Source: Buttiauxella sp. B2 (GTDB lineage: Bacteria; Pseudomonadota; Gammaproteobacteria; Enterobacterales; Enterobacteriaceae). From it: a DNA stretch of 48,190 nt. The stretch covers positions 1 to 48,190 of the forward strand of contig NZ_VEXQ01000025.1 in assembly GCF_006376615.1 (NCBI RefSeq), read 5' to 3'. The position numbers and the translations under genes are program-made. Positions within the stretch are counted from its first letter, which is position 1; the number at the start of each line of letters is the position of its first letter. This document shows, piece by piece, positions 31,892 to 34,076 of the stretch. The notes beneath the pieces are model-generated. The model had not been told where the DNA came from and did no database searches. It worked only from the letters and a program-made list of their open reading frames with translations.

Positions 31892-32806
31892 ATGGATGCG
31901 AAACAGACCCGCCAGGGCGTATTACTTGCGCTGGCGGCGTATTTTATTTGGGGCATCGCGCCTGCATATTTCAAATTAATCCACTACGTTCCAGCTGATG
32001 AAATTCTGACTCACCGCGTGATTTGGTCATTCTTCTTTATGGTGGTGCTGATTAGCCTGAGCCGTCAGTGGCCACAGGTGAAAAAAGCCTGTAAGAACCG
32101 CAAAAAGGTTTTTGCCATGGCGCTTTCGGCGGTACTGATTGGCGGTAACTGGCTGCTATTTATCTGGGCGGTGAATAACAATCACATGCTGGAAGCAAGC
32201 CTGGGCTATTTTATCAACCCGCTTGTTAACGTAGTCTTGGGGATGATTTTCCTCGGCGAGCGATTCCGCAGAATGCAGTGGGTCGCCGTAGCACTCGCAG
32301 CCTGTGGCGTTTTGGTTCAGCTGTGGACATTCGGCTCGCTGCCAATCATCGCCCTCGGCCTGGCATTCAGTTTTGCGTTTTACGGGCTGGTGCGTAAGAA
32401 AATTGCTGTCGATGCGCAAACCGGCATGTTGGTTGAAACGCTGTGGCTACTGCCGATTGCCGCTATCTACTTATTTGGCATTGCAGACAGTTCGACCAGC
32501 CATATGGGGCAAAACCCAATGTCGCTGAACTTGATGTTAATTGCCGCAGGTGTTGTAACAACCATTCCACTGTTATGCTTCACCGCAGCAGCGACACGCT
32601 TGCGCCTCTCGACGCTGGGTTTCTTCCAGTATATTGGCCCTACGTTAATGTTCCTGCTGGCCGTGACGTTCTACGGAGAAGTGGTGGGCAAAGATAAGCT
32701 GCTGACCTTCGGGTTTATCTGGGCCGCACTGGCATTGTTTATTTTGGATGCGGTTTATACGCAACGTAATTCGCGAATTGCTGCGCGAACGGCGATAACT
32801 AAATAA
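31892..32806 (+). CDS. rarD: EamA family transporter RarD
   Basis: Ten-transmembrane-segment drug/metabolite superfamily protein; named for a chloramphenicol-related phenotype, true substrate unknown. The 304-residue sequence starts MDAKQTRQGVLLALAAYFIWGIAPAYFKL. It contains two EamA repeats (LEASLGYFINPLVNVVLGMIFLGE and LSTLGFFQYIGPTLMFLLAVTFYGE). It converges on corA, with a shared hairpin between. Confidence 0.92.
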   Translation: MDAKQTRQGVLLALAAYFIWGIAPAYFKLIHYVPADEILTHRVIWSFFFMVVLISLSRQWPQVKKACKNRKKVFAMALSAVLIGGNWLLFIWAVNNNHMLEASLGYFINPLVNVVLGMIFLGERFRRMQWVAVALAACGVLVQLWTFGSLPIIALGLAFSFAFYGLVRKKIAVDAQTGMLVETLWLLPIAAIYLFGIADSSTSHMGQNPMSLNLMLIAAGVVTTIPLLCFTAAATRLRLSTLGFFQYIGPTLMFLLAVTFYGEVVGKDKLLTFGFIWAALALFILDAVYTQRNSRIAARTAITK

Positions 32807-33794: not shown

Positions 33795-33932
33795 GACCGG
33801 TACTCCCAATGCAAAAAAATATCAGGGACAGTTCGGTTGGCACACAGACAGAAACGATACAGGTTTCAGACCATTAAAAAGTCTGACTCATTGCGACGGG
33901 ATATACGAGATATGAGGTCGCCGACAACCACT

Positions 33933-33960
33933 AAGGCTATCAGCATAAGAGGATAGCCTT
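33933..33960 (-). promoter_or_regulatory. corA leader hairpin with alternative pairing to the upstream ORF's ribosome binding site
   Basis: AAGGCTATC (33960-33952) and GATAGCCTT (33941-33933) form a perfect 9-bp stem with a ten-base loop, starting at the stop codon of the leader ORF. TCCTCTTA (33953-33946), spanning the stem/loop edge, is the exact complement of TAAGAGGA (34031-34024), which holds the leader ORF's ribosome binding site. The two pairings are mutually exclusive. Confidence 0.7.
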
Positions 33961-34015
33961 AGAAGTTGTACCTGGATGACAGGTAATTGAGCCAGTATTT
34001 ACTGGGTGTGTCCAA
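33959..34015 (-). CDS. corL: corA leader peptide CorL
   Basis: An 18-codon ORF in the corA leader starts at TTG 34015, with AGAGGA eight bases upstream, and encodes MDTPSKYWLNYLSSRYNF. In Salmonella the corA leader is known to contain a translated short ORF, corL, whose translation governs Rho-dependent termination before corA. Position, size and the overlapping alternative hairpins here fit that mechanism. The UUG start is inferred; no ATG or GTG is in frame. Confidence 0.75.
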   Translation of the reverse strand: MDTPSKYWLNYLSSRYNF

Positions 34016-34040
34016 GGCGAGTGTCCTCTTAGCGTAATCG

Positions 34041-34076
34041 TGCGCGCATGTTACGCCACCACCTATATGGCGTCAA
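34041..34076 (-). promoter_or_regulatory. corA promoter
   Basis: TTGACG (34076-34071), a 17-base spacer and TAACAT (34053-34048) make a good sigma-70 promoter, with a start near 34041. It gives a leader of roughly 245 bases before the corA ATG, including corL and the hairpin. Confidence 0.7.

Follow-up and report, generated by a model that had tools for sequence, protein, structure and literature searches.

The locus described here raises the question whether the main magnesium channel of Buttiauxella sp. B2 is produced constitutively or under the control of a translated leader. The window, a stretch of 48,190 nt of contig NZ_VEXQ01000025.1, carries corA on the minus strand. Upstream of it a first-pass annotation had described a promoter, an 18-codon UUG-start ORF and mutually exclusive RNA pairings, and had matched them to the corL system of Salmonella corA. 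The right system had been named: by place, peptide family, promoter and alternative stems the ORF is the Buttiauxella orthologue of corL. The feature belongs to a family that has been published and annotated, and is known biology. Based on orthology, position and the hairpin called stem D below, we are highly confident in identifying the region as the corL-corA leader, at which Rho attenuates expression of the CorA channel. The coordinates of all features are summarized in Table 1.

Table 1. Features of corA and its leader in the window.
Feature	Position	Strand	Basis
corA, magnesium/cobalt channel, 316 aa	32844..33794	minus	TIGR00383, 365.5 bits, cut-off 200.75
Hairpin TCAGAC/GTCTGA	33866..33886	minus	read in the sequence
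Stem B (OFF-state hairpin), 33944-33935 with 33929-33920	33920..33944	minus	99.0% of cells paired, 2 pairs changed on both sides
Stem D, the hairpin of the ON state, arms 33968-33952 and 33941-33925, incompatible with stems A and B	33925..33968	minus	95.2% of cells paired
TCCTCTTA, 3' strand of stem A outer helix (anti-Shine-Dalgarno)	33946..33953	minus	2 of 8 pairs changed on both sides, no more than in shuffles
CUAAGGC, shared arm: stem A inner 3' strand, part of stem D 5' strand, corL stop	33956..33962	minus	stem counts of 68 leaders; stop in arm in 111/111
corL (ysgD), 18 codons, UUG start, UAA stop, LDTPSKYWLNYLSSRYNF	33959..34015	minus	NF041266, position, relatives
Hairpin inside corL, codons 11-16 (UACCUG/CAGGUA)	33969..33985	minus	82.3% of cells paired; one pair altered on both sides in 16 of 68 sequences
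Hairpin inside corL, codons 4-8 (CCAGU/ACUGG)	33992..34005	minus	paired in 100% of cells, 4 of 5 pairs invariant
GCCUUGG, 5' strand of stem A inner helix, holds start codon	34012..34018	minus	99.4% of cells paired, 68 leaders
TAAGAGGA with corL ribosome binding site (GAGGA 34028-34024), 5' strand of stem A outer helix	34024..34031	minus	complementarity
Transcription start (GAU), predicted	34039	minus	GAU primer of E. coli corA transcription (PMC11552253, accessible part) and aligned GAT
corA promoter: -35 TTGACG 34076-34071, 17-nt spacer, -10 TAACAT 34053-34048	34048..34076	minus	site scan; spacing kept in relatives

corA, its promoter and corL in the Enterobacterales

The neighbours of corA are uvrD (34153 and up, minus strand) and rarD (31892-32806, plus strand), both scoring above their NCBIfam cut-offs. 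The CorA proteins of Buttiauxella noackiae and B. agrestis matched the window CorA by 100% over 316 residues, three Buttiauxella loci were the nearest in the corA tree, and the leader was found as a single copy in the genome. The promoter TTGACG-17-TAACAT proposed by the first-pass annotation was confirmed at 34076-34048. The promoter scan yielded one such site and shuffled sequences 0.8, and the match taken alone is not beyond chance. TAACAT was located 36-40 nt ahead of corL in 113 of 113 leaders with the ORF found by pattern, and at a distance of 37-38 nt in the 79 pattern-found loci of 80 selected by CorA. According to the accessible part of PMC11552253, in vitro transcription of E. coli corA was primed with GAU. 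The aligned GAT would place the start here at 34039, not downstream of 33959, which would have spoken against the earlier reading, and the leader would then comprise 245 nt. Between the -10 box and this predicted start, 5 of the 8 positions of GCGCGCAC (34047-34040) were invariant and 2 more were conserved to at least 90% over 68 leaders. A long G+C-rich discriminator of this kind is reminiscent of ppGpp-restrained promoters.

The ORF extends from the TTG at 34015 to the TAA at 33961-33959, with GAGGA 8 nt upstream of the TTG, and is situated between the corA promoter and corA, where the ORF of an attenuator is placed. Its description as an 18-codon TTG ORF with a good ribosome binding site held: it scored 42.5 bits with the NCBIfam equivalog model NF041266 (YsgD_CorL; cut-off 30, profile positions 2-18 of 18) and is a member of that family. 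Frame-breaking indels, which would have counted against the earlier reading, were seen in none of 11 leaders of the genus, and GAGGA preceded the TTG by 8 nt in 105 of the 111 leaders with a located stop arm (see below). The corL leaders of Salmonella enterica and E. coli are alike in position, promoter, UUG start, the DTPS(R/K)YWL core, the putative stem A around the ORF, the competing stems and corA downstream. They differ from the window in residue 6, which is Lys (AAA) in 11 of 11 distinct leaders of the genus and mostly Arg elsewhere, and in the C-terminal residues, which vary along with the RNA hairpin. The statement that such small ORFs are normally missed is out of date. In E. coli K-12 MC4100 ysgD is annotated immediately ahead of corA, the same order is found in a Salmonella Senftenberg record and on plasmid R27, and ysgD/CorL appears in the E. 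coli, Salmonella, Enterobacter and Citrobacter rows inspected, with some plasmid rows lacking it. A further ORF of 26 codons with an ATG start (MLIALVVVGDLISRISRRNESDFLMV, 33866-33946, minus strand) begins within the loop of stem D.

The distribution of corL was followed through several samples. In the E. coli collection the leader region was matched in 5377 of 5426 genomes. Among the best 80 of 584 loci collected by CorA similarity, a UUG-start corL was recognized by one pattern in 79, and in all 80 once the pattern was widened to permit Ala at position 3. All 117 distinct leaders contained corL (113 by pattern; L022, L023, L112 and L150 by eye), in a set that was mostly chosen by leader or peptide similarity and is biased accordingly; two of its 150 loci (L148, L149) had been dropped, having no corA. 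UUG was the start in each of the 113 pattern-found leaders, with any NTG permitted. The usual frame and stop were lost in L094, where the frame extends to 22 codons, and L026 has a short ORF without the arm. A further sample comprised 2 genomes of the window's own family and 22 of other families within the GTDB order; a CorA at E 1e-60 was present in 9 of the 24. Upstream of corA, corL was present in two of these nine loci (L264, L265) and was not seen in the other seven (L263, L266-L271). Scanning the order with NF041266 gave 30 of 394 genomes at E 0.001, fewer than the DNA search of the family (243 of 392), and was therefore not used as a distribution.

Several single loci deserve mention. 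L263 (genome G023, same GTDB family) retains the promoter TTGACAG-17-TAACAT and lacks leader and corL, with the corA ATG 46 nt past the -10 box; judged from this arrangement it should be a natural leader deletion with constitutive corA. L265 (G039, 2.5 Mb) carries, by eye, a corL with LDIPGRYWL upstream of corA and scored 41.9 bits with the enteric model, and may bridge the enteric and Pasteurellaceae forms of corL. Matches to the corA leader were also found in 66 plasmid records, 46 of them typed conjugative. R27 (L030, NC_002305.1) has ysgD and corA amid plasmid genes and a YsgD protein accession identical to that of K-12; other plasmid records (e.g., L029, yigB-uvrD-corA-rarD) resemble chromosomal pieces. 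Sub-threshold matches to RF02564 (naRNA4; cut-off 59.5) near the leader, at L071:274-342 (41.1 bits) and L066:315-364 (27.0 bits), are possibly REP-type repeats, which is a guess.

Competing RNA structures of the enteric leader

Two exclusive structures were scored over 68 leaders, using 500 shuffles and slid versions of each structure as controls. For E. coli, the accessible part of PMC11552253 describes an OFF state of stems A and B and an ON state of stems C and D. In structure one, stems A and B form and stem A encloses two hairpins inside corL, in agreement with the three-way junction reported for the E. coli leader in the same source. Structure two consists of stem D, in which CAACU.CUAAGGCUAUC pairs with GAUAGCCUUAG.GGUUG. 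The first-pass annotation had seen a 9-bp hairpin at the ORF's stop; the hairpin exists and is longer, as the window pairs CTAAGGCTATC with GATAGCCTTAG over 11 bp, lengthened by CAACT/GGTTG to 16 pairs.

The covariation score of stem D, 0.060, was reached by 0 of 500 shuffles (slid maximum 0.023), 3 pairs were changed on both sides, and the whole ON structure likewise scored higher on covariation than 500 of 500 shuffles and every slid control. Both stem D and the ORF hairpins of the ON state are conserved, as in an attenuator. The hairpin of codons 11-16 covaries, with columns 65/82 reading AU in 37 and UA in 16 of 68 leaders; the C-terminal residues of CorL therefore track RNA pairing.

For stem A the picture is different. 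The pairing of TAAGAGGA (34031-34024) with TCCTCTTA (33953-33946), proposed earlier as sequestering the ribosome site, is indeed a perfect complement in the window, but it makes up just the outer part of stem A; conservation is found in the inner half, GCCUUGG/CUAAGGC. The outer half is loosely conserved, with 76.3% of cells paired over 68 leaders; its three pairs closest to the start form in 66, 68 and 65 of the 68, and the perfect 8-nt complement is kept in 4 of 11 distinct leaders of the genus and missing in 7. In the inner helix 5 of 7 pairs never vary, leaving no covariation to judge. Stem A as a whole had 87.1% of cells paired versus 40.2-61.8% when slid. Its covariation score of 0.088 was reached by 31 of 500 shuffles and equalled or exceeded by the slid versions (0.088 at -1, 0.089 at +1), and it had fewer both-side-changed pairs than any shuffle (500 of 500 as high). 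Enteric stem A covariation is thus not convincing. The joint score of A and B was reached by 0 of 500 shuffles, yet 296 of 500 matched its both-side-changed pairs and 474 of 500 its pair types. As stem A alone fails, the joint signal stems from the ORF hairpin and stem B. The covariation check suggested for both pairings was therefore passed by the hairpin and not convincingly by the Shine-Dalgarno pairing.

These results bear on the reading that the ORF and its complementarity arose by chance in an ordinary 5' UTR. It would fit that one promoter match is expected at random, that 7 of 11 congeners lack the perfect 8-nt complement and that stem A does not covary. The family-model score, the conserved position and the covarying stem D speak against it, and its ORF part is refuted by the NF041266 score and the CorA-selected loci, so that we give this reading a negligible chance.

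The orthologous leader has a further property of note. The inner helix pairs the start codon (34015-34013) with the stop codon (33959-33961) by U-A, U-A and G-U. In the accessible text of PMC11552253 the term "stop codon" has 0 occurrences and a start-stop pairing is not mentioned. The stop codon lies within the shared arm in 111 of 111 leaders with a located arm, the arm missing in 2 of 113 (L094, L026). Start and stop are 51, 54 or 57 nt apart, always in frame, in all 111, and the spacers on both sides of corL occur in all three phases.

Minimum free energy folds of 7 leaders, with some promoter bases included, gave state D in 2, among them the window, and A+B in 5. A helix of GAGG...CGCC with GGCGACCUC in the window fold was rejected (covariation reached by 186 and paired cells by 428 of 500 shuffles), as was a pseudoknot of the ribosome site with the stem D loop, which is unneeded since stem A accounts for the same pairing. 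The hairpin TCAGAC/GTCTGA is probably the published stem E.

RF02899 and the corA leader of the Pasteurellaceae

In a permissive Rfam scan of the window, positions 33929-34056 matched the full model of RF02899 (AaHKsRNA54, "Aggregatibacter sRNA 54"). The score of 21.9 bits falls short of the gathering score of 37. The consensus of the model reads AgAggacAcAcACuUuGGACA, resembling the ribosome site and start of corL, and its type in Rfam is "Gene; sRNA" instead of a leader. Over the class, RF02899 was found in 1 of 369 genomes, probably because few Pasteurellaceae were drawn, and over the family of that match in 93 of 101, 72 of them above the cut-off. We take this family to be the Pasteurellaceae from the name of the Rfam model and from AAAGTGCGGTCA, presumably the Pasteurellaceae uptake signal, with 350 copies in the 2.1-Mb genome G736 versus a single copy in the window's genome. 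It was counted in seven genomes of the family, of which four had 191 to 447 copies and three fewer than 10. Scanning 20 leader sources with cmscan at E up to 1 returned RF02899 for one (L077, 29.4 bits, E 0.26). With RF02899 so rare among these sources and the window score below gathering, the Rfam model alone is weak evidence of kinship.

The loci themselves were more informative. Of the 93 matching loci 86 were read, and all 86 had corA directly downstream of RF02899 and an ORF of the LDSHSRY type with a UUG start (85 by script; L299 by eye, with a longer frame), comprising 10-14 codons in 85. In the 8 genomes without an RF02899 match, LDSHSRY was present in 3 and a variant LDSHRD..., read by eye, in 4, and no ORF of this type was seen in L334. 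A strict TTGAC...TAACAT-like promoter was present in 58 of the 86, the other 28 having mostly TTGAC with a variant -10 box, e.g., TACCAT. The ORF sits like corL but outside NF041266: 0 of 20 Pasteurellaceae genomes gave a match above the cut-off of 30 bits, and 3 of 3 peptides matched 0 families. RF02899 is thus like the enteric leader in its place upstream of corA, the GAGGA-like box, the UUG-GAC start and competing stems after the ORF, and differs in the peptide (LDSHSRY...) and in a stem A that uses GAUUUAG upstream of the ribosome site.

Stems were counted in 47 of 79 distinct Pasteurellaceae leaders, the most diverged being left out of the alignment. Stems A (GAUUUAG/CUAAAUC) and B together had 86.3% of cells paired and a covariation score of 0.218 (0 of 500 shuffles, slid maximum 0.114), stem D 88.5% and 0.327 (0 of 500, slid maximum 0.133), and stem A alone 73.9% and 0.233 (0 of 500, slid maximum 0.141). 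Further pair types did not exceed the controls, with 134, 106 and 257 of 500 shuffles as high for A+B, D and A alone, and neither did the both-side-changed pairs of D and A alone (145 and 136 of 500). In a free stem search the best stem after the start codon began at most 5 nt past the first base of the stop in 23 of 47 leaders; the stop is thus placed at the switch arm in about half of them, a looser rule than in the Enterobacterales. R1, a covariance model of the enteric leader, was run over 35 sources at E up to 10 and gave 12 matches, all at corA leaders: the window, itself part of the training set, L264, L265 and, from 24 Pasteurellaceae loci, 9, of which only 4 had E <0.01. The other 15 Pasteurellaceae loci, the mgtA leader and the seven corA loci without corL were not matched by R1.

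In every recognized leader of both lineages corL starts with UUG followed by GAC, rarely GAT. NTG starts were permitted only in the one Enterobacterales search mentioned above; the later patterns required TTG, and other starts would score as missing, which in the Pasteurellaceae concerns only L334. UUG could be kept in the Enterobacterales through its pairing with the stop codon. As the A helix of the Pasteurellaceae lies upstream of the ribosome site, this pairing would not be the sole reason for UUG. A cause shared by both lineages would most simply be weak initiation, in line with the E. coli AUG mutant described below. The residues common to both peptides are L-D-x-x-S-R-Y/C, with no fixed proline; 85 of 86 Pasteurellaceae copies have His in place of the enteric core proline.

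From this comparison the Pasteurellaceae ORF probably works like corL. It appears likely that RF02899 is the Pasteurellaceae corA leader with a divergent, unannotated CorL and not a free sRNA, that corL-type control predates the split of Enterobacterales and Pasteurellaceae, that weak UUG initiation is selected, and that the free "sRNA" is the Rho-terminated leader. We found no publication linking corL or RF02899 to Pasteurellaceae corA in a search covering few subscription-journal papers. The literature match for RF02899 concerns RF02898 in the part accessible, and corA is not mentioned in the accessible parts of PMC4986893 and PMC10708910. The Pasteurellaceae branch is a probable new variant of corA control.

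Mode of action and meaning for magnesium uptake

The mechanism is known from E. coli and Salmonella. According to the accessible part of PMC11552253, the E. coli leader makes corA respond to intracellular Mg2+ with Rho terminating inside the leader, the Rho R66S variant has more RNA polymerase in the corL ORF, and corA expression goes up when the corL UUG is changed to AGG and down when it is changed to AUG. The two structures and the inverse expression of corL and corA were shown in these two organisms, and in that text Rho-dependent termination ahead of corA is reported for them only (PMC11552253). By analogy the Buttiauxella leader would behave in the same way. RNA polymerase would start near 34039, and a ribosome would already be loaded on corL when the 3' strand of stem A is transcribed. 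At high Mg2+ with efficient translation, the ribosome at the UAA would cover CUAAGGC, so that stem D is blocked and stem B forms; RNA for Rho loading would then be exposed and transcription stop ahead of corA. We infer the ribosome terminating at the UAA to be the physical block of the stem D arm. On early failure of elongation CUAAGGC would be free, stem D would hide the Rho site and corA would be made. With no ribosome loaded, stem A would fold the ribosome site and start codon onto the anti-Shine-Dalgarno and stop codon. That stem A hides the ribosome site in the state of efficient translation is in tension with the model, as is also noted in the accessible part of PMC11552253 (2024).

Codon changes were counted by parsimony. 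The synonymous bias suggested earlier as a check was not borne out in the Enterobacterales, where codons 2-9 of corL showed 6 synonymous versus 16 non-synonymous changes on a corA tree of 81 sequences. Codon 7 alternated between TAC and TGC in at least 11 changes, turning a U-A into a U-G pair and leaving the hairpin whole. Both results mean that the enteric nucleotide pattern alone argues for the RNA, and the case for corL translation is drawn from the frame, the position and the published mutants. In the Pasteurellaceae codons 2-7 showed 18 synonymous versus 6 non-synonymous changes (corA tree of 86 sequences), and 19 of the 24 changes were at third positions. As 15 of these 19 fall on one site (CAC/CAT), the bias leans largely on that site.

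The enteric pattern would fit an RNA that itself senses Mg2+ as a classic riboswitch, with corL translation incidental: changes preserve RNA pairs over amino acids, at codon 7 and at the covarying codons 11 and 16. This reading is nevertheless very unlikely, since the E. coli start-codon mutants alter corA expression (PMC11552253, accessible part), the length from start to stop is always in frame and the Pasteurellaceae peptide shows a synonymous bias. We also consider it unlikely that Rho acts at a fixed level, leaving corA effectively constitutive here. The accessible part of PMC11552253 states that corA has been regarded as constitutive, and the regulation in E. coli is modest, with 2.8-fold for the wild type in the structure test; however, two exclusive structures and a leader ORF are kept in both Enterobacterales and Pasteurellaceae, suggesting selected regulation.

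The attenuator reading preferred here has a parallel in the mgtL leader of mgtA (RF01056), which according to the literature also combines a leader ORF, exclusive stems and a Mg2+ transporter. It differs in its proline- and acid-rich, AUG-start peptide and in a PhoP-controlled promoter (PMC11552253, accessible part), and is a different family. The Rfam scan found no RF01056 match in the corA leader of the window. The genome's only match lies elsewhere, in an mgtA leader (43.5 bits) with an mgtL-like ORF MEPDPSPKTVMTGIIR, read by eye at L231:1516-1566 (G000:C75).

It is very likely that the main Mg2+ channel of this organism has an attenuator of the E. coli/Salmonella type and is not constitutive. 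If the Pasteurellaceae leader works alike, two lineages with different peptides and stems would share one logic of a weak UUG, a stop near the switch arm and exclusive hairpins. If true, three questions could be put to the test: selection for weak initiation, a role of proline in CorL like that in MgtL, and what is required of the ribosome to trigger Rho. One Rfam entry would then be corrected, and a missing small protein would be added to the annotation of the Pasteurellaceae.
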